The translations under genes were made by a program, and so were the position numbers. Below are positions 19,067-61,690 of a DNA stretch of 64,000 nucleotides, in pieces (position 1 is the first letter of the stretch; every line of letters begins with the position of its first letter). The stretch is from assembly GCF_964355755.1 (NCBI RefSeq), contig NC_092675.1, forward strand, positions 26,018,412 through 26,082,411, written 5' to 3'. The DNA is from Antedon mediterranea (Eukaryota; Echinodermata; Crinoidea; Comatulida; Antedonidae). The notes below the pieces were generated by a model. The model made no database searches, had not been told where the DNA came from, and saw only the letters and a program-made list of their open reading frames with translations.

Positions 19067-19168
19067 TTGGCTGTTTCCCAGCAACATTGTTTCACTCTGC
19101 TCCGCCTGGCCGTGGTGTCCATTAAGTTAACAACTTCCGAACGGGATAGTCAGATATTCAATTTTATA

Positions 19169-26899: not shown

Positions 26900-29800
26900 A
26901 TGGTTGTCATAGTTGTAATCTTGCTTCAAGTTATAACTTCATGTCTGGGTAAGTTTTTAAATGTTTCCATGAAAAACTAGCATGCAATTATTCCTTTAGT
27001 TAATTAACTTGTCAAAGTTTAAAAATGCTGACCCCCTGCGTTTGGTAACCATTCTATGTGGAAAATAATTACTATGTCATAGTTTAAAATTAAATTTCTT
27101 TAGGAATTATTTGTGCACAGGCCAGTTATCTAAAATAATCTAAATTTAATATTTTCTGCCTTAATTTATCATCGCCGAAATGCATTTTAGGTATAAGAAA
27201 AGATCTCAAACCCATTTAAATATATTAATCTTCTATAAGTCACAAAATAAACTAATTCTATTTTTATCTTGGAATTTTCAAATGGCGCCCCTTTTAATTT
27301 TTATGTCATGATTTGATATCTTAAAACGTACAACTTACTGTTTTTAATTAAAAATGTAAATTATTGCTTACATGCATTTCAAACTTAGGCATACTTTTGC
27401 TGATTGAATACGAGTCTTAAATTATTTCGGTTAATTCACTCTTTTTTTCTGTATTGATGTGTCATTCTTGCCATTTTTAAATAGGGATGGATTCAGCACA
27501 ATTCACTGCTTTGTCCGACGTTTGTCATGCATAGTCTTAAAAATTTACCACTCCAGAGTTCGCTTCCATATATTGGTAGCAGGCCTTTTTCTTTAGTAAT
27601 TTTTTTAACATGATATCGTGTGAAAATGATTTGCTGCCTGCCTGCCTGAACGAATGATGAATTGCAACATTAATCAAATATGGTAAATCATATACGTCTT
27701 TTCTGCTCTAGGAAATGAAGAATATATAACAGTTCTGAATCAAAATCCACAAAGCAATGTTGACACGTATTATCAATGTTATACTCCTACTGGTTATACT
27801 GATTATATTTTGAGTTACGGGAGATCATTTTCAGTAGCGAATGATGAAAGTTTAGATGAAAAATCGTGGACCGACGTGCCGCGTGATAATCCGCGTAGAT
27901 ATGTTGTAGAAGATCCAGTAGGCATGGGAGTATACTATTGGAAGATAGTAAACAATGATGACACCACAGTGGTTCAAACTATTAAAATAAGAGACGATGG
28001 TAAGTAAGTAAGTAAGTAATATTGTATTGTTCCAAGAACAGTACAATTTATAAAACAGCATAAAATATGAATGAAAATAAATACATAGAGTAATACAACA
28101 AAGACTTGGAAAGAAAAAGAAAACATGGAAAGCAGGAGATAACCCTGGTATTTTGTTATTTATTTTATTTTATTTTCAATCTTTCAAAAATCAGAAACAA
28201 TTAACGGGCTGTCTAGGTAAAGCAAAAGTTTAAAAAACTGTCATCAAATTAGAAACTGAATAAACGTTTTATAAAGAAACGACTATAAAAAAAAAATAGT
28301 ATAGGCCTGAAAAGATTATTTGTATTTCTACTTACTGTTTGCTTAAACGTGTTAACGTTGGTGTAGCTTGTGATCTAGCCATTTTCACCAACCTCATTGT
28401 TTTTTTTCTTTTTAGTTTTAGTATTTCTGTATCTTAAAAAGCTTAATATTCATTGTATTTCATTGTTAGTGACGTGATTATTTTAAATAAATACGGAATT
28501 AAAATGTTTGTTAAAATATACTTAATTACGCAACTATTTGTATACATTAGAGATGACGTCACAATCAATTGGTTATTCCTATTTAACTGTTAGTAAACGT
28601 AAGTATTTTTTTTTATCAAAATGCTACGATAAATGTTCTTTTCTACAACCAACAGCCTTAATAACGCCTGGTAATTCTAAAAACACAGTAACTGTAAACG
28701 TTGGAGATGACGTCACAATTAGATTTAACACTCATTTGAACAGTAATTTAGCCTGGAATAAAGATGGCTTCAATAACATACAGGTTGGAACGGAAAAGAG
28801 CATGACCTTTGACCAGGTAGAGACCAGTAATGCTGGTGTTTACGAGATGTATGAGGATGGAAACCGTGATCATCGTAGACATGCGTTTATCAAGTTGATT
28901 GTACGAGGTAATATGTCATGCCATAAACGGTAATAACGATGATTGCTTTGTCAGTTGAGGCGCCGGTTATGAACTCCTGAATATAGGCCCCTATACATAA
29001 TTAACTCACCATCGGATATTTTACGGCGGTCGAAATGAACGTGACTGTGACGTAATGGTCTAGACCTAAAATGAAGAAAGAATCAATATTTCATGTATGT
29101 AGGCCTAATGTACATGAAATGTATGTATGTAATGTATACATAATACATTAACAAATACATTACATAATCAGTGACAACATGACGATGATAATATATGTTG
29201 TAACATGACTGACATTTTGTGACATTATGTTTTCGATTTTCTACTTGATTTTCCCCCCTTTTATAGCTTGTCCACATCAAAAATGGGGTCCACCTGACTG
29301 CACTGGTGAATGTGAATACTGCTATAATGGAGGTGTATGTGATGATAAAACAGGATTTTGTATCTGTGCACCTGGATTTAGTGGATCTACATGTGAAACA
29401 GGTGAGACTGTGCTAAATGAAGACCATCAATCAACAGCACAAACAAATAAATTTTATTGACACACAATTAGGCCTACCTTACGGTGCGTATTCCTAAATT
29501 TTAGATATAGATTTATTTGAATGATCTATCAGCTAGATAGATTGAACTAAATTGTATGCAAATTAACCAGCCCTGAAGAAAAGTAATGTACAATATTTAA
29601 TTTGTATATAGGTTTAGCGAATAACCATGATTTAAATGTGTGTGTATTGGTGTGCACGTGAGGATTTAGTAAATATTCAAAATAATTGTGTGTTAAATAT
29701 TATATAAATTGTATGTATTGTATGTTAAAAAAATAATTTAGTTTTTGCAGTTTCATTAAATGGCTTATACTATTGATTCCCACTCGTAAGTTCGGTGGTA

Positions 29801-32800
29801 TGGTACATGCTAAGCTATATTGAAACTAGCGAAAGGCAGTATATTTATACCAACTCTTGTGCATGGTTTTATTTAAACAAAACTTTATTATTGTAATTAT
29901 CTATTTATAAATTGCTCTCGTCTTCTCTTCACTGGATTAAAAATATTGTCTACCTGTGTGCGACGCTTAACACTACGCGATCATTATAAACCCAGGTCGA
30001 CTTTCATGGCTTTCTGTTAAGTAACGATCTTCAAAATCCAGATTTAAACTTTTAAATCTTATTATTTTTCCAATCTGGGTATTTTACATCACTAAATTAA
30101 GAAAACAATATAAATAAAACTGCCTCCGACTTTGCTACGAAGAACTTTGTCAAGCATTCACTCAATTTCATTTACTTTTTTCTTTTTAATATTAATTTAA
30201 AAATTCAGTTTACAATGTGCATTTTTATTTGAGAAAAAACAAAACCATATGCTACATAGATAGTGATAGATGTGACAGTGTAGTAAACTGTGTTTAAATT
30301 TAAACATATAGTTTCTAGTAGTATAGTTTTTTTATCCATTTTCTATTTTAGAATGCGGTGGAAATAAACATGGTTGGAATTGTGAACATTTTTGTACCCA
30401 ACACGATGATCTTACTGCATGTAAAGATAAACAGTTCTGTTTACCTGATCCATATGGATGTAGCTGTGTTACCGGTTACAAAGGATTAAAATGTAACACA
30501 GGTAACAAAAAAAGTTTTTATCTGAGCGTTAGGCCTACTGAATATACGACTCGCGGTAGCCTAACTAATATAAGTAATACGGATTATTGCAGTGGTCTTT
30601 AACATAATTATTTAATTGAATTATGTTATGTTATTAATATTGCATCCAGAATGTTCGTCGGGTACATTTGGTGCAGATTGTGCCCAAACTTGTCATTGTA
30701 AACAAGGTGGTTGTAATCGATATACAGGAATATGCACTGACACTCAAGACTCATCTTGTGCATTTCCATGGAAAGGAACTAACTGTCAAGGTAAACCAAT
30801 ATTGTACAATTACATAGACATACTAATATAACTACTAAAATGAAAGTAGGATGAACCAACAAAAAGACTAAAAAGAAGATGTTACACTCCTGACGAGGAC
30901 GCTGAATAAATTAGTATTTTATGTTTTATAATTTATTTTTTTTTAGTAATGAATTGGACGAATCCACAGAATACAATATTTGGTTTTAAATGAATGACAT
31001 AAGATAAGATAAGATAACTTTTATTGATCCTCAAAAAGGAAATTCATTGCTCGTCATAATAACAAAGAAAACACAATAAAAACAAATATAGCATAAAACT
31101 ATTCATATCAAAACATCTAAAAAATTACAAGATAAAATTATCTTCTTGACTTCCTGTTGTACTGGATGATACCGGAGGGAATAAAGGATTTAGCAAATCG
31201 ATTGGTTTTCACACTGAGGAGCCTCAATCTACCACTTGGATTACCGTTGGTCTATGATCACTTTGTGGAGAGGATGAGAGGCATCCGACTCAATGCATTC
31301 GAAATCTTTCTGTAGGTGTTCTAGGTGCACATCGGTAAAGGAAGGCAGTTCCAGACCAATCATTTTACCAGCCCGACGGATGAAAGTTTCAAGGCGTCCT
31401 TTATTCCCTCCGGTAACATTACCAGCCCAACAGGCAGAGAGGCAGTACGTCCAAACACTACATATAACGGATCTATAGAACGAAAGGAACATCAAATCAC
31501 AGGAGTTAAATTTATATAAAGTTGTCATACAATACATTCTGGGATTTAATTTTTTGCTGATGAAGTCTATATGGTCTCCCCAACTCAGTTTATCATTGAA
31601 AACAATTCCTAGATACTTGTACTGGTCAACAATTTCAATTTCTTTACCTTTGATAGTGATTGGTTGAAAATTAAATTTATGTTTAGTCCTAAAATCAATG
31701 ATCATCTCCTTTGTTTTTGATGCATTTATTTGGAGATAATTATCGTCACAAAATTTAACAAATCTTTTACATACAAAGTTTTCTAATGTTTTGAAAGAAA
31801 TTTCTAGGAATTCACTCCGATTTAGGTGATTATCAAAAACCTCGTATATACCATTCTATATCTCGTATGTAGCTACTTAAGCAATACGTGTTCCGATTAA
31901 CATTTTCTGCTTTCTGATCGGTTATTTATCAAAATATTAGGTATATGCCTAAAATTCCATTTGAGAAAAACCCGGAAACACGAAGTTTTGTTAGTATAGT
32001 GATGATGTACTGTAGTATTGGCATCATGCAATAAAGATTATTGTATCTCACTCATGTTTCTAAAAATGAAATATATACATTTGTGGGCAAACTTTTTTGT
32101 AGAATGTCAGTCTAAACGGTTTGGAGAAAACTGTGACATTGATTGTACCAAACCATGTGAATGTCACCGACTAAATGGAAAGTGCATCCAAGGGACATGT
32201 TTTTCTGGTTTTCTTGAACCAAATTGTGTACCTACATATGACGGAAGCTTGATAGCTAATGCTTCAAGTTCTTCTATCACTATTGAATGGACGCCGTGGA
32301 GTACTGATAATGGAGAGGAAGACCTGGTTATTGGATACTTTTTATATCACAAACTAAGCAATACTGATGACTGGAAAAAGGAATTCTTCAATACTTCCTT
32401 ATCAGGTACTGTTACAAGGTTAATAGTGGACACACACTATACTTTAGGTGTTTCAGCTATGAGAGCTGGCGAAGAAGGTGAAGGACCAATTGGAGGGATA
32501 ATCACAGTAACAACACTTTGCGGAAGTAAGTATCTAATTATAAATGATATATTATATATGTAATTTGGCGCAAATTTAATTAGTGAGTAGAAATAAAACC
32601 ATGAAAGAACATAATTTATTATTGAGAGTTTATGTTATTCATACTTGTGAATCATGGAATAAATATATCCATACAATCTTATGTATCAACTGTGGCAAAC
32701 TAACATTGTTACTAGGCTTCTTCAAATAACAAAAAAATAAACAACAATTTTTTAACAGAACCTTCTCCAGTTGAGAACGTAAAACTCCAAACACCTTCAA

Positions 32801-34639
32801 ACACTGGTATTATTGTTACATGGATAGTAAGTACAATTCTAGAGATTTGTTGTTAATACTCATTTCGTCGTTTTATACGAAATATATTCTGTGGATTCTC
32901 ATACTTTACTGAACGCGTCGAATGAGTTAATCGGTTACATACTGTAAATCGGTTGACAGAAGGAACTTTCCAAATGTAAAATTGTCCCAAACAATCATTT
33001 ATGTTTCGTACTATCACATATTTATTACAATTATAACGTTTTCTATACATTGCGTTCTTTCCGTTCGTTTTTTAGGGAAAACTTGACGCTGAGTCATTGA
33101 AATGCTCAACTGCGGTATTTGACTATAGAGTATACCTAAAAGTAATCAACAATAAAGGATATCGGGAAGAGGTTTACCAGACAAAAACAAATCAATTTAA
33201 AATTGAAAATGTTGAAGTAGATGACACTTATGCTATCTTAGTCACTGTGTCTAATAAAGACAGTGAGAGTGAACCAGTTAGCATTTTAAACGTACCAGAA
33301 CAAGGTAATGCTGAACAAGGTACTACTGAACAAGATACTGCTGAACAAGGTACTGCTGAACAATGTCTACTGCTAAACCTAAACTAAAACCTTTATGCAT
33401 TTGATTATAATAATAATTGTCTAATTGATTGATTTTGAATAAACTGAGATGAAGTTGAATTCCTCTCAAAACCCTTACAAATTCAACATTCAAAGTTTAA
33501 GATCTAGGTCTACCTCATCTGTTTTGTTTCAATTCAATGATACAGAACTCACAATTATGTGACACATAAGTAACGTTAAATCACGAATTTTGTCTATAAA
33601 ATTGGACAGATATTTGTAAGGAGAATCGGATACATTCCTAAAGTCAAATTAATATTTTATTTTCTACCTTTTCGTTTGTTTTGAAGCTGCCATATCACGT
33701 TCATATCTATTCTGCTTTAGCTTCATATTTAACCCATTTTGACTCACCTAATTAAGCATTTCCTTTTACGTCATTATGTATTACATCACATCTTAAACAT
33801 CCACATGATTTGTTTGTATTATTTGTTTCTAAGAAAATGCAAACGGAATCATTGCTGGAGGTGCTGCGGCAGCAGGGGTGTGTTTTGGAGTCATCATTAC
33901 TATTATGGTTACGATCTGGTAATTTATCCAATATCAATTTTATATTTTAAAATATTTAGAATATTAGATAAAATTTGTTATTATGTATTTTAATTGTTTG
34001 TTTGTGAGCCATTCTAAGTTTCAAAACCATTGTAGGCAGAATGTTAAAGTTTAAAAGTGATGATCTATCTTGCTTGTTTCTAAAGTAAACAAAGACTTCG
34101 GAAGAATGTGAGTAAACCTGATGCAGCAAATGATCCACAAGTCTACTATAACACTGCAAGTAACAATTACAACAATTTTGCACCAGGGTAAATTTGTTTT
34201 CTTATACATTTTTTTACATGTTTTATGTTTCTTATATGTTATCTTCTATCGTTTTGATTTAGCTTTTTATTTATTCAGTCACTGATGCCCACTAAGCATT
34301 GTCAATTTTCAGCTATAGGCCTAATACGATAATACGATATATAGACGATAAATGGATGGATATAGCGAACAAACAAATATAGGCCTACAAACAGTAATAC
34401 GTAACTATCTATAATAAAGGCCTATAACATTTTTTTATAGAAAGATAAATGTGAATATGAAAGAATTTGACATATTTCAAATTAATGATTAATAATTTTT
34501 TCCTTCATTTCTTAATTCAAGACAAAACCAAGACAGATTGTATGACGTAACTGATGCTGATTATGCTACAGTCACTGGTCGTCCTGTTTACAGTAACACA
34601 GCACAGACATCAGAAATGAGAGAAGACCAACACAGATAA
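26900..34639 (+). CDS. Receptor gene A: kinase-less Tie-like transmembrane receptor
   Basis: Twelve exons: 26900-26948, 27712-27999, 28656-28907, 29267-29401, 30352-30501, 30650-30790, 32103-32525, 32759-32826, 33076-33304, 33834-33918, 34086-34187, 34522-34639. All borders are GT..AG and the sum is 2040 nt, giving 679 residues with no frame break. Order: signal peptide MVVIVVILLQVITSCLG, Ig 1 (about 18-112), cysteine-less Ig 2 (113-196), four EGF-like units (197-375, the second with FCLPDPYGCSC), two FN3 domains (to about 578), transmembrane segment AAAAGVCFGVIITIMVTIW, then a 70-residue tail. Order, EGF signature and GVY..LIVRG..C..QKWGP junction match vertebrate TIE1/TIE2, but there is no kinase: the tail ends in Tyr motifs (VYYNTAS, NYNNF, LYDVTDADYATV, VYSNTA). 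In Ig 1 the second conserved Cys is Trp (VYYWKI). Confidence 0.85.
31001..31785 (-). mobile_element. 5'-truncated non-LTR retrotransposon (LINE) in intron 6 of gene A
   Basis: On the minus strand the frame 31705-31241 reads MIIDFRTKH, QYKYLGIVFNDKLSW and later RRAGKMIGL, the region just after the reverse transcriptase domain in Jockey/CR1-type LINEs. The 3' end lies at 31001-31020 with a short (ATCTT)n-type tail (AAGATAAGAT on plus). The corresponding intron of gene C lacks it: C reads straight from AAATGAATGACAT to TTCTAGGAATTCACTC. Confidence 0.8.
33297..33372 (+). repeat. 15-bp tandem repeat with repeated splice donors at the end of exon 9
   Basis: Five degenerate copies of GAACAAGGTACTGCT. 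Read through, they encode EQG(N/T)(A/T) units. Each unit with CAAG|GTA offers a donor in the same phase, so exon 9 could end at 33304 or 5-15 residues later. Gene C has a single unit (60379-60403). Confidence 0.75.
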
Positions 34640-35929: not shown

Positions 35930-36039
35930 TGCTCTGTTGAACAACAGAACGAGGAAGTTCCATGAGGAAGTTCCTTGTCTAGTTCAGCAAATCAGAGAGA
36001 ACGTAAGTTTAGGACAAGCATTAAATTAAGAAACAAATT
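35930..36039 (+). other. Putative 5' noncoding exon of receptor gene B
   Basis: Matches 25690-25822 and 63140-63260. It holds GAGGAAGTTCC words, GTTCAGCAAATCAGAGAGAA and the donor AAATT|GTAAGTATTCG. If used, the first intron would span about 3.4 kb to the signal-peptide exon at 39458. Confidence 0.4.
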
Positions 36040-36370
36040 GTAAGTATTCGAAATTTATTATTTATTTACAGCTCTTTTTTGTCAGTTGAGAGCTTAAGTT
36101 TAATCGAGGTTATTGTTAAGAGATGAGTTCTAAGTTAGTATAGAATGGTTGGTCATCGTATCTTTTGATGTAGGCCTATAATGTCTTTATAATTTGAAAT
36201 CAATAACCAGTACCCGTCGCTTTCACCACAATGCTTGGTATTAAGAGATCGTTTGAAACAAATTCAATAATAATTTTACTTTCATATACAGATATTATAC
36301 AACAAAGGTCAGTTACACGTGATAAATATCTCAAATAATAATGTGGTAAACAAATTGGTTGTAGTAGCCT

Positions 36371-38990: not shown

Positions 38991-38994
38991 AATA

Positions 38995-39120
38995 CAATTA
39001 TACTAATTGACGACACTACGCTACACTTTATAAACACCATTAATCGACGCAACGATTTTTTTTAGAAAGTTAAACTACGGTACAGTATTTATAAAACAAT
39101 TGGATTTTATTTGTGTGCGT
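38995..39120 (+). promoter_or_regulatory. Conserved block upstream of gene B
   Basis: The stretch with GACGACACTACGC, TATAAACACCATT (TATAAA at 39029), TCGACGCAACGA and AAGTTAAACTACGGTACAGT recurs at 63650-63770 and partly upstream of gene A (about 26050-26100). Conservation in non-coding sequence suggests a promoter, an enhancer or just duplicated DNA. Confidence 0.35.
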
Positions 39121-39463: not shown

Positions 39464-39683
39464 ATGATTATTACTTTACTAGCTTTGGTTCAAGGAATTG
39501 TTTCCTGTTCCGGTAAGTTAACTTTTAAATACCAATAAAAATAACTTAAAACTCTATAATGTTTTTTTAGATATATTAATACCAACAACACAATCTCATC
39601 GGCGATTATTCAAATCAAGTATGCTGCCAAAAAGCGTCTTCGTATATTGGGCGCATATTGTTTCTAAATTGGTTTTGCTTACA

Positions 39684-39738
<55 letters not shown>

Positions 39739-42700
39739 ACTCAGTTAATAATAATCCAATTGGTATGACTATAATAAGTAATTTGAAATTCTTGATGTAA
39801 TCGAAAATTTTACAAAAATTGTAAGACAGAATTGAACATATTTAATATCATTATTATTTTTTGTAGTTTGAATGATAAAAATGTAGTCTGTGATTTATGG
39901 AATTGTCAATCATACAATTCATTGTATTTATATTCAGGAAATGATGGATATGTAACAGTTCTGAATTTGTCTCCACAAAGCAACGGTAACACAGGGTACC
40001 AATGTTACATTCCTACTACATTCACTGGTTATAATTTGAGTTACGGTAGATCTTTTAGAGTAGCAGATGATGAAAGCTTGAATGAAACATCGTGGAACGT
40101 GCCACGTGATGATCGTAGATATGTCGTATATGATCCAGTAGGAATGGGAGTATACTATTGCAAGATAGTAAAAGATGGCCTCACTACAATCGTTCAAACT
40201 ACTAAAATAGGAGATGATGGTAAGATTATATTAATATCCTGTTAAAACATAATCAATTGAAAACTAATTTCATGAAATGTAAGATGCACGCATCCACACA
40301 CCCGGCCGACACTAGCTATTTCATATTAATTTTTTTTTTTAGAATTTCACCAACATGTACATTATAATATTAGCAGTTTTAATTTAATTGTAAACATACA
40401 TATTTATTATTTATGAAACAGCCTTAATCACGCCAGGTAAAACTAAGAACACAGTAACAGTAAATGTTGGAGATGACGTCACAATTAGTTTCAACACTGA
40501 TTTGAACGGTGATTTAGAGTGGAGGAAAGATGGTTCTCCTCCATTTAAAAATGGGATAGACAAGAGAATGGCATTTAACTCAGTAGAGATCAGTGATTCT
40601 GGAGTCTACGAGATGTATAAGAGTGGTAATCGGTCTCAGCGTCTACATTCGTTTATCAAGTTGATTGTACGAGGTAACATTATTATAGATAGAGTCGTGA
40701 GTGGCGGATGTCAGTGCCATATCTGAACCTTTGACAATATTTTTGCCCAGTATTATAAAAGAAAAGTCTGTAATACAGCATTTAATGTGTACCACATGTG
40801 GTGGATGTATTATGCAAGGTTGGAATAATGGTTAGATTATGATCGTTGGTACTTGGTGATACATTATGAGACACATGTGATCATGTACAGAATCGGCTAT
40901 ATTATTAGTTCTCCTTGTCAAAACATATTTAACATATTGTAGTACAGTAGTTTTTAAGGTCTAAATCCTATTAAGTCAACATTTAAATAAGTAATAATTT
41001 CTTTAATTAAATAAACAAAATAAAAGATTAATTGTATGCTTAATCTGTTTGTAGAGTGTCCACGTCACAAATGGGGTCCAACTGACTGCACTGGTGACTG
41101 TGAATACTGCTATAATGGAGGTGTATGTGATGATAAAACAGGATTCTGTATCTGTGCACCTGGATTTAGTGGATCCACCTGTGAAATTGGTAAGAGAGTC
41201 TTTAGATAATGCAAACTATAACTGAAAATGTCCTTAATATCATCCTAAATTATTATACTTACTTAAAGCTCAGATACAGGCATGAATTTTAAATATAATA
41301 TCTGGTTAATTGTACATAAATCAAATATATATTTGTAACAGAAATCAAGACGAAAAAGCATGAATTTCCCTTAAATATGGTCAAATACAAAATTTGACAA
41401 AAATTTGCCATAAAAACCAGGAAGACTTTTTTTCAGTAGTTAGGTAGTTTAAACCTATGTAATAACATGTCTGGTGACTCCCTAGAAGGTGAAAAAAGAT
41501 GGTGGATATACGGTGAATAATTTTTGCTTTAGCATGAAAATAAAAATCTGAAGTTGAATAAAAATACTAGAAATGTAAAATTCAAGTTATATTACCTATA
41601 TTTAGTCATTTGATAACATTTTTTACCACACCGTTTATTTTTCATAGCTTTTTAAAATGCCTCTCTATTTACAAAATTTGTGTATAAAAAAATAGAGATT
41701 TTACTGTGTAAGTTGAACTATCCCCCCACTGATAAGAAAGTGCTTATTTTCAACAAGCTCGTGTAACACAAATAAAATCCCAAAAATTATGAAACATAGG
41801 GGAAACTATAGATCGATAATTATTGGAATGTATGATCAATAGAAATGTTTTGCCCGCACCTGGCCTTTAAGATTAATAACATGTCCAATAGAGATTTTTC
41901 AAATGGGAAACATTATTAGATTCAAGATTCAAGATTCAAGAAATTTTATTTGTCCATAAAAATGGAAATTCACTTTGCTTGGTAGATTAAAACAACAATA
42001 TTGCAACAATTTAAAACGTGCAGTATTATAACAGATTAAAAATACAAGATAAAAAGTTAAAAATACTGTTAAAAATGTAAAACTATTTAAAAATTGCATT
42101 ATCGTCTTACATTAGAATTGAAAATATGAATGCTATTTACAACGAAGGATTTTCTAGTTCTACAGAGATTTGCTCTTGGAAGTCGTAGCCTACTGTAATA
42201 CCTGATCTATCTAAGTTATAACAGTAATGTAACGGATGAGTGGGGTCTTTCATAATATTGTTTACTTTTTTTTAAATACTTTTTTCATAGATAAATGAAC
42301 ACGGCGTTAGATCAGCTTTAATAATACGTTGTGCAATTTTACGTGGTTTCTCAATATTTTTCTTATCATTTTCAGTAAAGTTATCATAAAAACATCCAAT
42401 GCTAAAAGATAAAATACTTTGAATAATACTTTGATAAAATAGAATTAAAATAGTGTTATCAACTCTAATTTGCTTGAGTTTTCAGAGAAAGTAGAGCCTT
42501 TGAGATGCCTTCTTTGAAATCATGAGAGAGTTTGACTCCCATTTTAATTTGTTGTCAATTATAGTACCTAAGTATTTGTATTGGGTTACTCTTTCAACCT
42601 CGGTTTCTTTAATAGTTATTACATTATGTTCAACTGCGGTTTTACGAAAATCTATTATCATCTCTTTGGTTTTAAGTTCATATCCTCACACCAATTAACA

Positions 42701-48700: not shown

Positions 48701-51700
48701 CACCAATAGGCCTACTATACCGCGCACAGATAAAAGTAGATAAGTTTCTGAGCATACGCAGAACAAATTTCTGATTGACTAGTTTCTTGTGGTGCGCGCG
48801 TCAGAGAGCAGGGAGATGTATCCCTCTCTTGATGAGAGGTACGAAAGGAAGCCAACACACACTGTGTTCGGGAAAAAACCCGTCATATGGGTCGTCAATT
48901 TGTTCATAATTATTGCCATAATTTAAGGCCAAATCATAGTTTTGCGTATAGTATTATTTTTCCGTGTAGTACCCAGTTTATCTTCATTTCCGTATACGTC
49001 CGTAATATTAGGCCGAATTTCAGAATTAACAGAGAATTATACCGCATCGGTAGCTGAGCAAACTCGGAACTTGATAGACTTAGTCATAAATTAGTTACAG
49101 AGTTTTACGGCATTTTATCATTGTTCAATGTTTTGTTGTTAGCTTATTGTTAAAATTGGTAAAAGAAGTAAGTCTGGCGCCAACAAATTTAGCGACCTTC
49201 ACAACCAAAATATTTCTTTGTAACAAAAATTATTTTAAATGGAACGCTACAAAAACAATCCTCTGCTTCATCATTGCATAAATACCAGACAAGATCTTAT
49301 CTTTGTTACGTTTTACATCAATCCATTTTGATATCACGCAATCCATTTTTCAACAATATAGTAGTATAATAATAACATTTTGATTGAATAGTGAGGGATT
49401 AGTTACAGTGTTGACCTTAAATAAACCATTGGTAATTTACTGAAAATCCAAAATGAACTTGTGTTATATAATACAAGCAATAAAAACTATCACAGATTAC
49501 CTCTAATAGATCAAGCATTCACATACGAACTTTTCGACAAAACATAGCTTATATTCATTCCTTTTAAATATTAGGCATATTACCAAGGCTGATAATCGAT
49601 TTGTCCATAATAATTATTGCGTTTTGCCGGGGGGTTTCCATAATCTAAGGCCAATTTTTAGGCCAAATCATAATTGTGCGTATAGTTTTTTCCGATGCGC
49701 GTAGTATCCTATTTATCTTAAAATGATTAATTGCTAATAAATTTACAATAATTGAGTACAGTTATTAGAATGTAATACCGTACCAGAAGTACCTTCATCG
49801 GGAACTTCCCCGTGACGTTCGCATTGAACGAAAACAAAAATGTTATCCTATAGGCCTATTGTTAGTCGCGTATGTTTTATTACCGGTGTCGAATAACATT
49901 ATGCTACGATCCCGTGTTTGTTAGCGCACTATAGAGTGAGTGACATTTCCGTCGAACTAGAGGTGCAATTTATTATGAATTTTACGTGCGAGAGTACCAT
50001 GTAGGGGTGTCATTTAACAATTTTCTTGCTCAAATACTCATTGTCTACAGCACTGGAGTCTTTGGGCAATCCTCTTAAAATAGTCCTGCGAGTCTGCGAC
50101 CGCCCCTGTAGCGCTCTATCTTTTCCAATTTTTCTTACCTCAGCCCCAACCATGATGAGGCCAAAGAAGATCCTGGGGCAGGAAACTCTTAAGAGAAGGG
50201 GTGCTCTTGCGGCTGGTAACCAATATCATTGGTGGTTTGATCGTTTGATATTAAATCATATAAGCTGGTTACACCGGGGGTAATTCCCATAAGAGGGGCC
50301 TTTTGGGAAAAAAGAACCCCCCTGTAAAAATCATGGCCGGCTACGGGCTTGAATCTAGCCATGTAAAACATCTTTTAAATCAAAACTAGTATTCATTTTA
50401 ATCATAATGATCTTGCACTATTGATTGATTTTGAAGGACAATTTAGACGTTGATTTACTAAAATGTTACAATACCAATTCGGGTATGTACACAGTTTATT
50501 TCAAAACGATTGACATCAAAGAATGCAGTGAGAAGGTTTACCATACCAATGCTAGTCAACTTACTATCGAAAATATTACAGTAGATGACCCTTATCTCAT
50601 CTTGGTCAGTCTATCAAATAAAGACAGCGAGAGTGAATTAGTTAGAAGTTCAAATGATATAGAAAACGGTAGGTATACTGCGTCAATAATACATTTCGTA
50701 AAGTATTGTACCTTCATCAAAGAGATAACAAATTAGGCCTATTGTATTGTTTACATTATTTGTTATGACGGTAAAGATTGAGAGACAAAATCAAAAGAAA
50801 CCGATCAGAAATTGCCACCAATGTCATCGTTAAATAAATTAAGTCTTAATATTTATGCAAATTTCAATTTCGAATATTTTTAAGAATGTATGCCTACAAA
50901 TAGATCAAATTCTGGTAGCATCATTGGTGGTTCTGTGGCAGGCGGCATTTGTGCTGGTTTTATCACCTTCATCATAATATCAATTTGGTAAGTTAACAAG
51001 GCCAACAGCCATTAAGTCGCGTGCTACAATGCATAGTGATACCGGACCGACAGACAGACCGACAGACCGACAGACAGACAGACCAACAGACAGACCGACA
51101 GACCGACCGACCGACATAGTGAACTATAGAGTCGCTTCCACGCGACTAAAAATATAGTCCCAATTTTGAAACAAAATAGAATATCGACACGTTGTTTTGC
51201 AATGACATTTTACAACCATAGTCAAATACGATAGGCCTACCTTAAAACTATACTTATTTATTATTAGTATTTTTCATTATTACAGTTGTGTTTTTCTTTA
51301 AGCCCACAAAAAATACGGAAATATGTTAGTAAATCTGACGGTGAGGAAAGCAATATTTATCAGGAATACGCAGCAGCTAGTAATAATTCAGAATATTCAT
51401 CATGGTAATTATGAGTTTCTATTCTTGTTGCCAACTAATATTGACACCTCCTATATTTAGGCCTAATTATCACATCACATTAGGTTTAATCATTGCATTC
51501 ATTTGTTATTGTGTTTAGTATTCAGTCGGTGATTATAACATTAGAAATGTTTCGAGTAGTCAATGTAGTGCAACTTGACTAATTTAGCAACAGACATCGC
51601 GCAAATCTGCTGTTAGTTGTGTGCTGTCCTTACTGTTCTGGTTGTATCTGTACTAATCTTGTAATTTTTAAATGATAAGTTGTTATACTATTGGTGCTAC

Positions 51701-52264
51701 ATTTTATTTAAGTATTATTGTTATGATATTATGATGCCCGTTGAAATCAATACTGAGGTCTATAACATTATATTTTGTGTTTGTCTAGTAACCCAAAAAT
51801 AGTGACAAGTTTTAACAATGATGATTCAACTGATCAACACGTGTATCAGAATTGTGCAAGTTACAATTCTTCACCAGAGTGAGTATGGCATTCAAGATTT
51901 AATCATTAAGTACATTTGACAATAAAACAAAGGTTTATTTTCATATTTATAATAAATAAAGGAATAATGGCTACATAAATGTATACTGTTAATACAATAT
52001 TAAGAAGGCTTTTTTTCCTTGTAGACATGTACAAAGGTGGTGAGCAGTTACATACATCTCTCACTACTACTATAACATTTTAATGTATTTTCTATTTTTA
52101 TAATTCATTAAAAACGTTATTTTAACTCGAAAATTCGATGGAATCATTCATGATTGAAAGATATGTGTATATTTTATATTTCAAGCAATTATGAAAATCC
52201 AGACATTGTTAAAATGCCTGAAAATCAACCATATGAGATTGTAAACTTGTTCAAGTTAAAGTAA
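39464..52264 (+). CDS. Receptor gene B: kinase-less Tie-like receptor with third Ig domain
   Basis: Exons: 39464-39512, 39938-40219, 40422-40673, 41055-41189, 43381-43530, 43701-43832, 44060-44191, 44622-44900, 45261-45569, 45737-45816 (or -45810), 50437-50668, 50885-50987, 51303-51404, 51789-51878, 52186-52264; 2406 nt, 801 residues in one frame. Order: signal peptide MIITLLALVQGIVSC, Ig 1 with both Cys (YQCY, VYYCKI), cysteine-less Ig 2, four EGF units (FCLPDPYGCSC in the second), a third Ig (TASCLVKH to STYKCVIV), two FN3, transmembrane segment near SVAGGICAGFITFIIISIW, tail. This is the full TIE2-like order except that TIE has three EGF and three FN3 units and a kinase. The tail has IYQEY, VYQNCAS, NYENP and PYEIV. 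Intron 10 holds a 4.3-kb transposon, intron 4 a LINE. Confidence 0.82.
39687..39735. repeat. (CT)n microsatellite
   Basis: About 24 uninterrupted CT units in intron 1 of gene B, well upstream of the acceptor at 39937. Confidence 0.98.
41263..41870 (-). mobile_element. TTAA-flanked non-autonomous element, copy 1
   Basis: TTAA at both ends (41263-41266, 41867-41870) and imperfect terminal repeats (AGCTCAGATACAGG against AGGCCAGGTGCGGG). The same 600-bp sequence lies inverted at 56761-57361 in an intron of gene C. TTAA targets are typical of piggyBac and Kolobok types. No coding capacity. Confidence 0.75.
41929..43215 (-). mobile_element. Degenerate LINE reverse transcriptase in intron 4 of gene B
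   Basis: Minus strand 43209-42862 holds FAYKKNRGVDDAV and the catalytic block FFDFSSAFNTI; 42843-42658 holds KYADDTVIRG (YADD); 42680-42550 reads MIIDFRKTAVEH and QYKYLGTIIDNKLKW. The 3' end near 41929 has an (ATTCAAG)n tail. Stops and frame changes make it inactive. Same clade as the fragment in gene A. Confidence 0.85.
44622..44900 (+). other. Gene B exon 8: third Ig domain, absent from A and C
   Basis: A 279-nt exon, phase 1 to phase 1, so it can be skipped or lost without shifting the frame. It encodes an Ig-like fold with the Cys pair in TASCLVKH and STYKCVIV and several N-glycosylation sequons (NNT-type, NIT). It corresponds in position to the Ig domain between EGF and FN3 units of TIE receptors. 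Confidence 0.7.
46065..50351. mobile_element. 4.3-kb transposon with CCCGTAGCC termini, 5-bp target duplication
   Basis: The left end CAAGCCCGTAGCC at 46065 and its complement ending at 50351 are flanked by AATCT on both sides (46060-46064, 50352-50356). It lies in intron 10 of gene B, splitting the second FN3 domain's two exons. The interior has a nested element (46165-47249), an unpaired end of another element near 48522 (GGGGCGGACCCAGGGGTG) and a repeated AAGGCCAAATCATA block (about 48928, 49660). No transposase frame was recognised. Confidence 0.8.
46165..47249 (-). mobile_element. GGGTGTCACGAAAC long-TIR element, complete copy 3
   Basis: Starts GGGTGTCACGAAACCTAAG and ends in the complement (TTCGTGACACCC). 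The arms each carry CACGAAAGCTAAGACC words, CGCACCTGCCTT-type, GGCGCTCCATAGAAAC-type and CATTGAGCAT blocks, so the 1085-bp element can fold over most of its length. Interior identical in kind to 17637-18598, opposite orientation. Nested in the 46065-50351 transposon. No clear target duplication. Confidence 0.85.
51014..51150. repeat. CCGA-containing mini-TIR repeat, copy 3
   Basis: Begins TTAAGTCGCGTG and ends CACGCGACTAAAAA, an inverted pair, around an expanded (ACCGACAG)n core and CATAGTGAACTATAGAGTCG. It lies in the intron after the transmembrane exon of gene B. Confidence 0.75.
52025..52039 (+). other. Possible 15-nt microexon of gene B
   Basis: A strong acceptor (TTTTTTTCCTTGTAG) and a strong donor (GTGAGC) enclose 15 bases in phase 2 to phase 2, compatible with both neighbouring exons. 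Inclusion would add five residues to the tail. Only RNA can decide. Confidence 0.35.
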
Positions 52265-53998: not shown

Positions 53999-54003
53999 AC
54001 TAC

Positions 54004-55054
54004 CAGGGCCGTAGCCAGGATCTGTCAAGGGGGGTTCGGACACTAAATATTTGGGTCACCCCCCCCTGGGGGTGGGGCCTGATGCGAGGCGAATTTTGTT
54101 AAATGACACCCCTAGATGGCCGGAAAAGACACTCTCGTACAGCATGCTACCAATGAGCAAAAAGATCGTACTTTTTTCCTCCTTCTCAAACACGTCGATA
54201 ATTTAAAGGACGATAACTATTTGTTGCCGTATGTTAGATGCGCGTGCTCTGTGCGGAACCGCCGATTGTTTGATCATTTACTCCGTATTTTGTTTTGCGT
54301 TCAAGTTCAATGCGAACGTACATCTAGGAGCAGCCCCGAAAAAAGCACACTGGTTGAAGGCAAATGCTATTTGCTAGCTCTATCTATAATATTTATTTAC
54401 AGCAATTTGTTGAGGAATATAAATATTTAAATAGGTGATATTGATACATTTTAGTACGTATCGGCTGGTGGTCTAGAAAAAAAAAATCGGATGCCATAAT
54501 GTGAACTACAGTACTTGATACCATAGATATTATAGTGTAAAATATTAATATTCACTATAATCCTCTATGATACATTATACTTCATAGTCACACATAAATA
54601 CTGAAAGTGTACGTCGGAAGGCTACTTTATGCATGCTGCCTGACTGCCAGTGATCTAAACAATAATATTATAGGTACGCAGTTGTCTGGCGGTGTCCTTT
54701 GTACGAATCGTTCGTGCCCCAGTTCGCTATGAGACGCGTCAATATCATGTTACATGCAGGGACCAAACATTTATTTTTCAGGTTAAATCGGCAATTCATT
54801 TGCAGCTTTTAGAAATTTATAGACACGTATCACTAGTTGACGCTCATACAGAGAAGAAGGTTCACGAACAAGTTTACGAATTTTTCAATTTACAAACAAC
54901 TTTTTGTACTGTGGGGCACGTATTTGGAGGATTTTTGGAGATGAGGGTGAGGTATTGGGCATGTCGGAGATGGGGGTTCGCAGTCGGTTAAGGGGGTTCG
55001 ATGTAAAGGGGGGGTTCGCCCGAACCATAAAAACCCCCCCTGGCTACGGGCCTG
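54004..55054. mobile_element. 1.05-kb transposon with CCGTAGCC termini, 5-bp target duplication
   Basis: Left end CAGGGCCGTAGCC at 54004, right end GGCTACGGGCCTG at 55054, flanked by ACTAC on both sides (53999-54003, 55055-55059). Same family as 46065-50351. The next internal bases (GGGGGGTTCG) are also inverted at the right end. Two open stretches of about 100 codons inside (54116-54430, 54692-54991) match no family I know. Confidence 0.85.
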
Positions 55055-55227
55055 ACTACTAACAGGTCTGTTCTGATTTTTAAAGTTGTGTGCTCTGCAT
55101 TTTATTCGAATTATTGAAATAAAAAAGCAGTGATATATCGATGACGCTGATAGTCAACATAACATTGTTTTTTTTTCATTACGAACATTTATTTAGAAAA
55201 TAGCTAAATGTATACTTTTATTTTAGT

Positions 55228-58200
55228 ATGATTTTTCCAGTTTTAATCTTGCTTCAAGTTATTTCCTGCCTGGGTAAGTAAAATATTCAAAATATATTCA
55301 AAATGTTGGTTTGTAGGCTAGATCTAAATAATGTTCAATCTTAATATCCTTCTATTCCGACAAACTCCCATAGATATTTTTGGTAAAACCCAGCGTCGTC
55401 GGAATAACAGCTTAAATTAGAAACTTTTAATGTGTAAATACAGAAAAATCTTTTTCACAGTCACAACATTTTAAATCACCCGGTGATATACTAAACACGT
55501 ATTAATATTTAACCTTTAATATTCTACTTTAGGAAATAATGGCTATATAACGGTTTTAAATAAAAATCCACAAAACAACAATAATTGGGAATACCAATGT
55601 TACACTCCTAGTATATTTGCTGGTTACAGTTTGAGTTACGGTAGATCATCTGCTGTCAGAAGTAACGATAGTTTACAGGAAACATCATGGAACGTTCCGA
55701 CTGATGATCGGTATGGAAGGTATATCACCGATCCAGTAGGCATGGGAGTATACTTTTGTAAGATTGTGAAATATGGTGTCACCACAGTCGTTCAAACTAC
55801 TAAAATAAGGGATAATGGTAAGATAATAATGTTATCATCATGTGTATAAAAACATTTTTGTATTCAAATAACTAAAATTGTATTTTAAATAAAATTATGG
55901 TCCTAGTAATGTACCGTACTAGGCACAGGGATATACCATAATATAAAACTAATAATAAAACTAACAATATAATTCAAAATTTTTTGAAGCTAAAATGAGA
56001 TTCATAAATGTTTAGTTATTAATAGTATGGATCGCTAATGAGTAAGTTAATATTACTGATTTTAGTATCCTATTTTCAGCCTTAATAACGCCTGTAAATT
56101 CTAAAAACACTGTAACTATGAATGTTGGAGATGACGTCACAATTAGATTCAACACGCATTTAAGAAGTGAGTTAGTGTGGAAGAAAGATGGATCTACTAC
56201 ATTAAAGATTGGAACAGAAACGAGCATGACCTTTGACCCAGTAGAGACCAGTGATGCTGGCGTTTACGAGATATATGTGGATGGTCACCGAGAAGATCGT
56301 AGACATTCATTTATCAAGTTGATTGTACGAGGTAAATAATTATGGTGTTTGCTGATTGCCCTCTCCGTCCAGGCGGTGGTTATGAACTCCTAAATGTATA
56401 CATAATTAAACCGCAATCAGCATTGTCTAGAAGGATGTATTGTTTTAAGTACGGCGGTCGAAATGAATGGCGGCCGATAATAACTGTGGTGTATTGGCCT
56501 GGACCAATGAAGAATCAATTATTTCAAGCAACAATGTAACCTGGCCAGACTTAGGTTGTTTATAACAACGTTTTAGAAGAATTTGAAGCGAAAAAGTATG
56601 CTCGAAATTAAATTAAAACATAATGTGAAAACGAAACCACACGGACAGTAACGTTTAAAATACATAATTATGACGATGATAGTATAAGTTGACATCGATA
56701 TTATGTCATCACTACAATGAGAGTACTAGAGAGGTTACGGCAGGTCAAAAGAAGTTTAGATTAAAGGCCAGGTGCGGGAAAAAAATTTCTATTGATCATA
56801 CATTCCAATAATTATCGATCTATAGTTTCTATGTTTCTTATTTTTTGGGATTTTATTTGTGTTACACGAGCTTGTTGAAAATAAGCACTTTCTTATCAGT
56901 GGGGGGATAGTTCAAATTACACAGTAAAATCTCTATTCTTTTGTACACAATTTTTTTAAATAGAGAGGCCATTTAAAAAGCTATGAAAAATAATTGGTGT
57001 GGTAAAAAATGTTGTCAGATGACTAAATATAGGTAATATAACTTGAATATTACATTTCTGGTATTTTTATTCAACTTCAGATTTTTATTTTTATGCTATA
57101 GCAAACATTATCCACCGTATATCCACCATCTTTTTTCACCTTCTAGGGAGTCACCAGACATGTTATTACATTAGGTTAAACTACCTAACTACTGAAAAAA
57201 GTCTTCCTGGATTTTTTATGGCAGAATTTTGACAAATTTTGTATTTTACCATATTAAGGGAAATTCATGTTTTTTCGTCTTGATTTCTGTTACAAATATT
57301 TTATCTATGTACACTTAACCAGATATTATATTTAAAATTTATGCCTGTACCTGAGCTTTAACTAATGTAAACCTGATTTGTTCTTCTGTTATAGCATGTC
57401 CACGTCATAAATGGGGTCCACCTGATTGCACTGGTGACTGTGAATACTGCTATAATGGAGGTGTATGTGATGACAAAATAGGATTTTGTATCTGTGCACC
57501 TGGATTTATGGGATCTACGTGTGAAACTGGTAAGAATGTTCTAAATGAAGACCATCAATCAACAACACAAAAGTTAACTGTTCTTGACACATCCTAATTA
57601 TTACCTTATGACTAAATTTTTGGTATGGCTATCTTTCTAGCTATAATTGAGCTAAACTTAACCAGCCATGAAGTCATATACAATATACTCAGATTTAATT
57701 GCTTCAAATCAAGCGAATCACTTTGATTTAAATTTATGTGTATTGATTACTGGTGGGTAGGCTCCTACGTGAGGATTTAGTCAATATTCAAAGTCATAGA
57801 AGTGTGTTAAATATTTTATAAAATTATACCATTAGTTTAGTTTAATTTATAAGCTATATGAAGACTCTTATGCATGCTTATATTTAACCAAACAAAACTT
57901 CATTATTTTAATTATCTTTTTATAAATTTCTCTCTCCTTATTTTCACCGGAAAAAAAACCCGTCTACATGTGTGCGACGCTTGACACCACGCGGTCATCA
58001 TAACCAGCAAGAAATTTGTGACTCACCGTTAAACAATTACCTATCATTCACATTTTAACTTTACATTTTTGTCATTTTTTACATTAGCCAATTAAAGAGA
58101 AAATATAAAATAAAACTTCCTCTGACAAATCATTGCTATCTGATGATTGATGTCTCCGGTGAACACCTTGGAAAGGTCTTCCCTGGGTTGACGCACTTGT

Positions 58201-61200
58201 TTTGTTCATCCTCTCTATAGGAAAGACCTTTTTCAAACATTCACTCAATTTCCTTTCTTTGAAAAATAAAATTGTACAATGCACAGTTTGACTTTAAAAT
58301 ATAAAAATAAAACCAGATCCTACATAGATAGTGATAGAAGTGAAAGTGTAGTAAACTATTATTTTAAACATAGTTTCAATTCTAAACTTTCATTTTTCAC
58401 CTTTAACTATTTTAGAATGCGGTGGAAACAAACATGGTTGGAATTGTGAAAATCCTTGTACCCAACAAAATGATCTTACTGCATGTAAAAATTGCCAGTT
58501 CTGCCTACCTGATCCATATAGATGTAGCTGTGTTACCGGTTACAAAGGATTAAAATGCAACACAGGTAACAAAAACAGTTTTATCTGAGAGTTGCTGAAT
58601 ATACGACGCGCAGTAACTTATATAGGTTATGATTATATTGTAGTGGTCTTTAATAACATTTTATGTTTTTGAATGTTGTATTGGTGCAGTATGTTCATCG
58701 GGTACATTCGGTGCAGACTGTGCTCAAACTTGTCATTGTACACAAGGTGGTTGTGACCGATATACAGGAAGATGCACTGACACCCAAAACTCCTCTTGTG
58801 CATTTCCATGGAAAGGAACTAATTGTCAAGGTAAAACCAATATTGTTTTAAGACTGACAAAAACTAAATAATAATGAATACAATTTTGTTTTTAAATGAA
58901 TGACATTTTGTTTTGGTTTTGGAAGAAATTTCTAGGAATTCACTCGTATATACCATTCTGAACCTCGTACACTAGTAGTATTTACGTTTTCCGACAAAAA
59001 AATGTTCAGCTTTTTGATTTTCTGTTTTACGTATAAAATTACATTTCAGAAAAACAAAAATGGAAACACAAGGTTTTGTTTTAGTATATTGACTATGTAG
59101 TATTGACATCATGGAATAACGATTGTTATCTCATTCATATTTCTAAAATGAAATAATATACATTTTCGGGCAACAATTTTTGTAGAATGTCAGCCTAAAC
59201 GGTTTGGAGAAAACTGTGACATTGATTGCAACAAACCATGTGAATGTCACCGACTATCTGGAAAGTGCATTCAAGGAACATGTTTGTCTAATTTTCTTGA
59301 ACCAAATTGTGTACCTACATATGACGGAAGCTTGATAGCTAATGCTTCAAGTACCTCTATCACTATTGAATGGACGCCGTGGAATACTGAGAATGGAGAG
59401 GAAGATCTTGTTATTGGATACTTTTTATATCACAAACTGAGCAATACTAATGACTGGAAGATGGAATTCTACAATACTTCCTTATCAGGTACTGTTACAG
59501 GGTTAATAGTGGACACAGACTATACTGTTGGTGTTTCAGCTATGAGAGCTGGCGAAGAAGGTGAAGGACCAATTGGAGGGATAATCACAGTAACAACACT
59601 TTGCGGAAGTATGTATCTAATTTTAAATAATATATTATAATTATGTAATTCGGTGACGGCACCAATTTAAATAGTTAGTAGAAATAAAACCATGAGAGAA
59701 CTAATTTATTATTGAGAGTTTATGTTATTTATACGTGTGAATCTAAACATGGAATAAATATATCCATACAATCTTATGTATCAACTGTAGCAAACTAACA
59801 TTGTTACTAGGCTTCTTCAAATAACAAAAAAATAAAGAAACATAATTTTGTTAACAGAACCTTCTCCAGTTGAGAATGTAAAACTTCAAACTCCTTCAAA
59901 CACTGGTATTATTGTTACATGGATAGTAAGTACACTTCTAGAGATTTGTTAATACTCATTTCGTCGTTTTATACGAAATATATTCTGTGGATTCTCATAC
60001 TTACGCGTCGAATGAGTTAATCAGTTACATACTGTAACGGATGACAGAAGGAACTTGCCACATGTAAAATTATTCCAAACAATCATTTATGTTTCGTACC
60101 ATCACATATTACAATTATAACGTTTTCTATACATTGCGTTCTTTCCGTTCATTTTTTAGGGAAAACTTGACGCTGGGTCATTGAAATGCTCAACTGCGGT
60201 ATTTGACTATAGAGTATACCTAAAAGTAATCAACAATAAAGGATATCGGGAAGAGGTTTATCTGACAAAAACAAATCAATTTAAAATTGAAAATGTTGAA
60301 GTACATGACACTTATGCTATCTTAGTCACTGTGTCTAATAAAGACAGTGAGAGTGAACCAGTTAGCATTTTAAACGTACCAGAACAAGGTACTGCTGGAC
60401 AATGTTTACTGCTAAACCTAAACTAAAAAGTTTATGCATTTGATTATAATTATAATTGTCTAATTGTAAATTACGATTTGTATTGAATAAACTGAGATGA
60501 AATTCCTCTCACAACCCTTACAAATTTAACATTCAAAGTTTAAGATCTAGGCCTACCTCATCTGTTTTGTTTCAATTCAATGATACAGAACTCACAATTA
60601 TGTGACACATAAGTAACGCTAAATCACGAAGTTTGTCTATAAAACTGGACTGATATTTGTAAGGAAAATCGGATACATTCCTAAAATCAAATTAATATTT
60701 TATTTTCCACCTTTTTGTTTTTTTTAAGCTGCCACATCACGTTCATATCTATTCTGCTTTAACTTCATATTTAACGCATTTTGACCCACCTAATTAAGCA
60801 TTTCCTTTTATGTCATTATGTATTACACATCTTAAACATCCACATGATTTTTTTGTATTATTTGTTTCTAAGAAAATGCAAACGGAATCATTGCTGGAGG
60901 TGCTGCGGCAGCAGGAGTGTGTTTTGGTGTCATCATTACTATTATGATTACGATCTGGTAATTTATCCAATATAAATTTTATATTTTAAAATATTTAGAA
61001 TATTAGATAAAATTTGTTATTATGTATTTTAATTTTTTGTTTGTGAGCCATTCTAAGTTTCAAAACCATTGTAGGCAGAATGTTAAAGTTTAAAAGTAAT
61101 GATCTATCTTGCTTGTTTCTAAAGTAAACAAAGACTTCGGAAGAATGTGAGTAAACCTGATGCAGCAAATGATCCACAAGTCTACTATAACACTGCAAGT

Positions 61201-61690
61201 AACAATTACAATAATTTTGCACCAGGGTAAATTTGTTTTCTTATACATTTTTTTACATGTTTTATGTTTCTTATATGTTATCTTCTATCGTTTTGATTTA
61301 GCTTTTTATTTATTCAGTCACTGATGCCCACTAAGCATTGTCAATTTTCAGCTATAGGCCTAATACGATAATACGATATATAGACGACAAATGGATAGAT
61401 ATAGCGAACAAACAAATATAGGCCTACAAACAGTAATACGTAATTATCTATAATAAAGGCCTATAACATTTTTTTTAATGGAAAGATAAATGTGAATATG
61501 AAAGATTTTAATCATCATTGACATATTTCAAATTAATGAATAATAATTTTTCCCTTCATTTCTTAATTCAAGACAAAATCAAGACAGAGTGTATGACGTA
61601 ACTGATGCTGATTATGCTACAGTAATTGGTCGTCCTGTTTACAGTAACACAGCACAGGTATCAGAAGTTAGAGAAGACCAACACAGATAA
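55228..61690 (+). CDS. Receptor gene C: kinase-less Tie-like transmembrane receptor
   Basis: Twelve exons: 55228-55273, 55533-55817, 56080-56331, 57395-57529, 58416-58565, 58690-58830, 59186-59608, 59858-59925, 60160-60388, 60873-60957, 61125-61226, 61573-61690; 2034 nt, 677 residues without a frame break. The domain order equals gene A: signal peptide MIFPVLILLQVISCLG, Ig 1 with both Cys (YQCY, VYFCKI), cysteine-less Ig 2, four EGF, two FN3, transmembrane segment, Tyr-rich tail (VYYNTAS, NYNNF, VYDVTDADYATV, VYSNTA). The exon joining EGF 4 to FN3 is fused as in A. EGF 2 reads FCLPDPYRCSC (Gly to Arg) and has an extra Cys (KNCQFC), giving an odd cysteine count. Introns and flanks match A from exon 5 on. 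Confidence 0.85.
56761..57361 (+). mobile_element. TTAA-flanked non-autonomous element, copy 2
   Basis: Reverse complement of 41263-41870, bounded by TTAA at 56761-56764 and 57358-57361. It lies in intron 3 of gene C, ending 34 bases before the EGF 1 exon. Confidence 0.75.

Follow-up and report, generated by a model that had tools for sequence, protein, structure and literature searches.

The three adjacent genes found in a 64,000-nucleotide stretch of Antedon mediterranea DNA (referred to here as the window) raise the question of how a receptor might use a TIE-type head when it ends shortly after the membrane without a kinase. TIE receptors are kinases of blood-vessel biology, and the three genes, G1–G3, could be fragments of such kinases or members of something different. 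The account we lean towards is that each is a receptor crossing the membrane once, with a TIE2-type head that binds a ligand and a short tail serving as a phosphorylation-dependent adaptor, and that they are the proximal members of an array of Tie-headed receptors with tandem phosphatase (PTP) tails at the distal end. The evidence for this is the anatomy of the genes, the array itself, the lack of any kinase match in our searches, intact motifs in the first PTP domain (D1), an enrichment of YxN in the tails, dN/dS values below 1, and the grouping of the heads with those of Tie-type receptor phosphatases (RPTPs).

Complete exon models were obtained for all three genes on the + strand, with G1 at 26900–34639 of the window (12 exons, 679 aa), G2 at 39464–52264 (15 exons, 799 aa) and G3 at 55228–61690 (12 exons, 677 aa), the 3′ half of G3 being closely similar to that of G1. 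The first ATG of G1 at 26900 and the final stop of G3 at 61690 fit the limits given by the first-pass annotation, which had described three neighbouring genes with clean frames and GT..AG introns, and this is confirmed by the exon joins, as the reading frame stays unbroken across 36 introns, each of them GT..AG (it should be noted that GT..AG was imposed as a condition on the models and an unbroken frame was not). All three begin with a pair of Ig-like exons at the N-terminal end (IgA and IgB), the second without cysteine, and have four EGF units and a single transmembrane (TM) exon, and the order in G1 and G3 is signal peptide, IgA, IgB, EGF1–3, EGF4, two FN3 domains, TM and tail. The proposed order of Ig, cysteine-less Ig, EGF, FN3 and one TM is found in all three, with a post-EGF Ig exon (Ig2) placed between EGF4 and FN3 only in G2.

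The IgA exon of G1 (27712–27999, +) has Trp in place of the second Ig cysteine and its IgB exon (28656–28907, +) has zero cysteine; these are followed on the same strand by EGF1 (29267–29401), EGF2 with the motif FCLPDPYGCSC (30352–30501) and EGF3 (30650–30790), a single exon for EGF4 and FN3-1 (32103–32525), FN3-2 over two exons (32759–32826 and 33076–33304), and the TM exon (33834–33918). G2 has the fullest TIE2 order of the three (Ig, Ig, EGF, Ig, FN3), with the EGF2 exon at 43381–43530, the third Ig exon at 44622–44900, where it occupies the position of the third Ig of TIE2 and has a predicted Ig fold of moderate confidence, and the TM exon at 50885–50987 (all +). The corresponding EGF2 and TM exons of G3 are at 58416–58565 and 60873–60957 (+), and the TM exons of all three genes run from phase 1 to phase 2. 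The FCLPDPYGCSC signature attributed to the three genes is exact in G1 and G2, but reads FCLPDPYRCSC in G3 (Gly to Arg). We also note that the window is rich in AGGCCTA/TAGGCCT, a motif linked to echinoderms, with 101 occurrences compared to 3.4 expected from composition. A search for COX1 found no copy.

The assignment of a TIE-type ectodomain was upheld by searches of solved structures (PDB), in which the G1 head from IgA to EGF4 matched TIE2 ectodomain entries with an E value of 1.6e-42 and all three distinct sequences listed at E ≤ 0.001 were TIE2, while full-length G2 matched TIE2 at 1e-45 over residues 50–334, followed by weaker FN3-type matches (titin and receptor PTPs) and one match to an EGF protein. 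The TIE2 stretch aligned to IgB likewise has no cysteine. Profile searches of the predicted proteins, which had been proposed as a check, recovered part of this architecture, with Pfam FN3 above cut-off in G1 (31.1 bits) and G3 (32.5 bits) but below the cut-off of 25 in G2 (20.9 bits). None of the EGF or Ig models passed in G1–G3, where the EGF matches and the single I-set match all fell short of their cut-offs. The Ig_Tie2_1 model (PF10430) had no match in G1–G3 at E 1 and only two sub-cut-off matches in the genome, and we consider it neutral on Tie identity for this reason. The predicted structure of Ig2 (pLDDT 70.3) matched a single PDB entry at E ≤ 0.001, which was an IgM-Fc complex, and that of the IgA exon (pLDDT 53.8) was too poor for use. 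G1–G3 have in sum an Ig-Ig-EGF-Ig-FN3 ectodomain homologous to that of TIE2, with the third Ig in G2 only and two FN3 domains.

The claim that these genes end without a kinase exon also held, with stops after 72 residues in G1 (tail exons 34086–34187 and 34522–34639, +; 6 Tyr and 3 YxN), 89 residues in G2 (51303–51404, 51789–51878 and 52186–52264, +; 8 Tyr and 2 YxN) and 72 residues in G3 (61125–61226 and 61573–61690, +; 6 Tyr and 3 YxN). YxN is the consensus for Grb2-type SH2 docking, and we counted it in eleven tails assembled from the window and from the array described below, each with 6–8 tyrosines (g04, a near copy of G2, was excluded from this test, as were g06–g09 and g17–g21). YxN occurs 28 times compared to a shuffled mean of 9.9, with 0/3000 shuffles as high, and when one tail is taken from each of five types it occurs 13 times compared to 4.73 expected (0/3000 shuffles). 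YxN is thus present beyond chance, as expected of SH2-docking tails, though the choice of tail exons may favour Tyr: the tails of G1–G3 were modelled by between-copy similarity, for those beyond the window the exons were selected among scored splice candidates, in part for their tyrosines, so that their YxN count may lean upward, and in g10 and g12 the acceptor of the middle tail exon is weak (1.1 and 2.0). The tail paralogues furthermore lack independence, YxN is by itself a weak motif, and these proteins are generally rich in asparagine. YxLP was also enriched (4 compared to 0.10, 0/3000; by type 2 compared to 0.05, 5/3000), Yxx[ILV] was not (6 compared to 8.18 expected), and the ITIM pattern [ILVS]xYxx[ILV] had no match in the eleven tails (1.76 expected).

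The three genes are real and complete but are not the whole family, as tblastn searches with G2 and the EGF block placed them at the proximal end of a tandem array of ~340 kb which extends far past the window on the same contig (C6:26.047–26.378 Mb). At least 21 EGF1 exons are listed between C6:26047680 and 26373298, the first three of them in the window, and this is a lower bound because the search scores the best candidates only; the expanded family suggested by the first-pass annotation is thus evident. We read 234,557 of the 341,645 bases of the array, window included, and exon maps of the units read have a common basic order with variations (IgA and IgB were frequently outside the stretches read). 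Ig2 is missing from G1, G3, g05 and g16; in the stretches mapped, the second FN3 was undetected in g06–g11 and g19, and EGF4 in g13; g11 has two EGF2 exons, g15 has a split or partial EGF2 match, and the EGF1 given to g19 by position lies ~10.7 kb before its EGF2. Ig2 is repeated in units g06–g09, with 10 Ig2 and 9 FN3 exons in g08 (these are from the exon map and were not joined into a gene model).

Short tyrosine tails are found in 12 units (G1–G3, g04, g05 and g10–g16, with the tail class of g04 resting on matches to the G2 tail exons) and PTP tails in five units at the distal end (g17–g21). TM exons but no clear tail type were found in g08 and g09, and gag-like frames were noticed by eye beside the g08 tail. 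No TM was found in the stretches read of g06 and its near copy g07, and these may be broken units. Beyond G1–G3, a TM exon candidate was found in all 16 array stretches scanned, with 14/16 leaving in phase 2 and those of stretches L031 and L032 in another phase.

The phosphatase tails, which had not been foreseen, emerged as PTP peptides in a juxtamembrane search of the distal genes. Among the PF00102 candidates scored (150 of 278), matches in the array are listed only at C6:26.293–26.386 Mb and none nearer the proximal end, with the two of five distal genes scanned by Pfam giving 3e-47 and 1.2e-48. All five of g17–g21 have the WPDKGVP loop and the HC|SAGVGRTG signature in D1, and so combine the head common to the array with a PTP domain carrying the WPD loop and HCSAGxGR; G1–G3 have no such domain and there was no PTP match in the window. 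The best PDB matches of the g20 D1 are RPTP epsilon, alpha and LAR. A second domain (D2) was read in g20 and g21, and in g20 this has WPV for WPD. The inactive D2 domains of known RPTPs likewise have WPV in this position. A candidate C-terminal exon past D2 ends YVNNR in g21, and none of this type was found for g20 within the stretch read.

Given that TM exons of G1–G3 and 14/16 of the candidates scanned leave in phase 2, array TM exons could be interchangeable, and the short tails might be an artefact if these exons were spliced over long range to the distal PTP exons, as in clusters with shared constant exons. We regard this as very improbable, since all five PTP genes own their PTP exons and the short-tail genes own stop exons with repeated motifs and dN/dS below 1 where finite.

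Tie-headed phosphatases also appear to lie outside the array, with Tie-type EGF1 clusters amid PTP matches at C5:7.66–8.07, 12.03–12.14 and 25.2–25.3 Mb and at C6:7.19–7.24 Mb. PTP exons were read at one C5 locus (L044) and one locus at C6:7.17 Mb (L042), near the heads L043 and L014 and on the same strand, so that the link is by nearness and strand and not by gene model. The L042 signature taken for D1 is SAGVGSTG, in which the catalytic Arg is replaced, and to judge by this residue the L042 D1 may be inactive.

A further possibility is that G1–G3 descend from a true Tie kinase whose kinase exons were lost, and now act as decoys or co-receptors for a Tie ligand. The head does match TIE2, and Tie-type kinase exons, which were to be sought elsewhere in the genome, were located, as a human TIE2 kinase query found multi-exon kinase loci at C6:15.10, 4.27 and 27.48 Mb on the same contig, the last ~1.1 Mb from the array. 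The C6:15.10 Mb kinase matches TIE2 in the PDB at 2e-122, followed by an EGFR entry at 1.6e-83 and FGFR1 at 3.4e-72, and two of the three loci have Tie-type EGF exons upstream of the kinase on its own strand (stretches L009 and L037), although here too head and kinase are linked by nearness and strand and not by gene model, L009 and L010 lying 17.5 kb apart. Kinase matches in stretches L002–L008, first taken as Tie candidates, looked Eph-, Trk- and Src-like on inspection by eye and were dropped. In the array itself, the kinase-family profile had no match among those listed (133 of 774 candidates scored), the TIE2 kinase query had none listed in C6:26.04–26.39 Mb (131 of 378 candidates scored), and the C6:15.10 Mb kinase exons, which recover the 4.27 and 27.48 Mb loci when used as the query, found nothing in the window or array stretches L015–L036; neither kinase nor PTP exons were matched in the window or array stretches L015–L030. 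By these searches of the window and array, with the best candidates scored, G1–G3 have no intracellular tyrosine kinase.

A loss of kinase exons sits poorly with the relationships among the heads. A tree of EGF1–3 with 27 rows (g07 was omitted as a near copy of g06, C5_12M has EGF1–2 only and g15 a partial EGF2) separates human TIE2 and two kinase Ties from all others with 98/98 support, and places the array genes, a C11 copy, the C6:7.2 Mb pair and the C5 locus on the opposite side of this split. The EGF block of the array is thus set apart from the kinase Ties and falls with the Tie-headed phosphatase loci; the trees are unrooted, the EGF tree having no outgroup, and we therefore claim a grouping and not a direction of change. 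Short-tail and PTP-tail genes are intermixed in the EGF tree, with 15 of the 24 inner branches open. The Ig2 tree loosely groups short-tail g10–g15 with PTP genes g17, g18, g20 and g21 (87/80) and places g19 beside proximal units, and the FN3 tree has little resolution (g06, g08 and g09 entered the Ig2 and F1 trees as selected copies). EGF1–3 identity between G1–G3 and the C6:7.2 Mb RPTP-type heads is 59–64%, compared to 46–56% for the kinase Ties and 48–51% for human TIE2, but the C5 head at 56–58%, compared over two EGFs, is hardly nearer than one kinase Tie at 52–56%. The split and the presence of PTP tails within the same array both speak against descent from a Tie kinase, which we consider quite unlikely, and because of the five PTP genes and the 98/98 split the description of these genes as Tie receptors that lost the kinase is probably the wrong history. 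Membership of a Tie-headed phosphatase lineage is more likely for G1–G3 than an origin as truncated Tie kinases.

Comparisons between copies gave 49 finite dN/dS values for exons, every one below 1 and 31 at 0.2–0.5, though these are point estimates which rest on few changes. Tail exons ranged from 0 to 0.93, and one g10/g12 tail comparison, with 7 nonsynonymous changes but 0 synonymous ones, gives no defined ratio. Some features might suggest decaying duplicates without function, including the near copies g06 and g07 with no TM found, the split EGF2 match in g15 and the gag-like frames beside the g08 tail, but the frames of G1–G3 stay open across 36 introns and every exon with a finite dN/dS has a value below 1, and we give general decay hardly any weight.

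Along G1 and G3 the dS between the two genes drops, being 0.56 in IgA and 0.02 in the final FN3 exon, which is the kind of mosaic that gene conversion or a partial duplication would leave. Such divergence could also be in keeping with a paired-receptor recognition system for immunity or self/non-self, in which differently tailed members bind related or variable ligands, as could the number of units (about 21) with short and PTP tails and the further EGF1 clusters amid PTP matches on C5 and C6. Sea urchin SpTie1/2, described as a Tie2 orthologue, is reported to have raised expression in the axial organ and coelomocytes (PMC12113024), and a Tie-2-like kinase is reported in starfish coelomocytes together with a receptor phosphatase (PMC13409769). 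However, there is no sign of diversifying selection, with dN/dS below 1 in every finite comparison including the Ig exons, and no ITIM in eleven tails, which leaves a dedicated recognition system rather unlikely.

We return to the short-tailed adaptor account, under which the Ig-Ig-EGF head would bind a ligand or a protein on an adjacent cell, and clustering of the receptors would allow a cellular tyrosine kinase to phosphorylate the YxN sites of the tail, which might then dock SH2 adaptors of the Grb2 type. PTP-tailed paralogues with the common head would be drawn to the same ligand and strip these phosphates, and the short tails may derive from the loss or replacement of PTP exons. We infer each of these steps, from ligand binding and phosphorylation to Grb2-type docking, the antagonism between paralogues and the origin of the tails. 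Of the roles suggested by the first-pass annotation, signalling adaptors fit the YxN tails of the window genes better than decoys. The tails of R3 RPTPs are also reported to carry YxN sites (PMC5336234).

A wider proposal, which we put forward tentatively as possible, is that in this animal the TIE head became detached from the kinase and was reused on a kinase, a tandem phosphatase and a tyrosine-docking tail, with phosphatase and docking members in one array, and that receptors which activate, relay and oppose may all respond at once to one ligand family, possibly as a coelomocyte recognition system. If true, the same head on phosphatases and short docking tails would make it an independent recognition module, and the array would offer a testable case of receptor and counter-receptor evolution inside one gene array. 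In vertebrates the phosphatase acting on TIE2, VE-PTP, is a protein of its own, whereas in the array phosphatase and Tie head would share one gene.

Neither Tie-headed phosphatases nor a family of Ties without kinases was found described in the accessible portion of the literature on Tie receptors and receptor phosphatases, most subscription papers being outside the reach of the search, and a word search of the main text of a 2024 review of RPTP extracellular regions found neither 'EGF' nor 'Tie2' (PMC10815196). Compared to known receptor PTPs with tandem domains of the LAR, alpha and epsilon type, g17–g21 are alike in the intact D1 motifs and, for g20 and g21, in having D2, and the distal array genes differ in the Tie-type EGF head, with no PTP in the window genes. 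The resemblance of G1–G3 to TIE2/TEK and TIE1, the angiopoietin receptors, and to SpTie1/2 extends over the Ig, cysteine-less Ig, the EGF block with FCLPDPYGCSC, the post-EGF Ig (in G2), FN3 and one TM, and they differ from TIE2 and TIE1 in the missing kinase, the short tyrosine tail and the tandem arrangement. TIE2 has three FN3 domains, and unlike TIE2 these genes have two, as well as one extra EGF before the third Ig. Enzyme-less receptors with phosphotyrosine-docking tails and paired receptors are a known class, from which the short-tail genes differ in their Tie-type head and in the absence of ITIM matches from the eleven tails, and which they would appear to resemble, at the level of motifs, in short tails with 6–8 tyrosines each lying beside phosphatase-tailed paralogues.

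Exons encoding the first EGF unit of the Tie-type head (EGF1) form clusters intermingled with PTP matches on contig C5 of the same genome (7.66–8.07 Mb, 12.03–12.14 Mb and 25.2–25.3 Mb), and because the cluster at C5:7.66–8.07 Mb includes at least 21 EGF1 exons among the matches listed, a further large array, made up of Tie-headed phosphatases, likely occupies this region. EGF1 clusters are also found at C3:13.15–13.24 Mb, C4:1.78–1.80 Mb and C8:15.76–15.79 Mb, where no adjoining kinase or PTP was found among the matches listed, and these are possibly further short-tail receptors.

On C6, the contig carrying the main array, the PTP exons of one Tie-headed phosphatase (L042; C6:7171700–7175299, minus strand) include an exon taken for D1 in which the PTP signature reads SAGVGSTG, and since Ser replaces the catalytic Arg here, this D1 may be inactive. 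At C6:26.107–26.125 Mb there are three nearly identical 5' units spaced approximately 7.7 kb apart (L017, L018 and L019), the last of which runs into a series of ten exons for the third, post-EGF Ig (Ig2) and nine FN3 exons; these units represent incomplete duplicates, or else they are alternative 5' ends. An array-type head also stands alone on C11 (L001; 15398500–15408490, minus strand), comprising the Cys-less Ig and EGF1–4; one more EGF comes after it, with neither a third Ig nor an FN3 match within the stretch read.

Within the window, reverse transcriptase fragments lie on the minus strand in introns of gene 2 (42862–43239; Pfam RVT_1, 7.4e-09) and gene 1 (31241–31855; judged by eye, with no match from Pfam). 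Two further minus-strand frames are probably mobile elements, one MULE transposase-like (6492–8405; 1.2e-05, slightly below the cut-off) and the other with matches to a PHD finger (at its cut-off) and an OTU-like protease (below cut-off) (10340–11314). AGGCCTA/TAGGCCT occurs 101 times across the window versus 3.4 expected from base composition.

We also note an open frame at 19064–19387 (plus strand) that contains KIGSFNIQLFGQ as well as a signal-like stretch; it had no Pfam match, and by eye it resembles exon 1 of a DNase I-type gene. Finally, a single stretch of C2 (12.65–12.69 Mb) contains dozens of FN3 exons, and is perhaps a titin-like giant gene.
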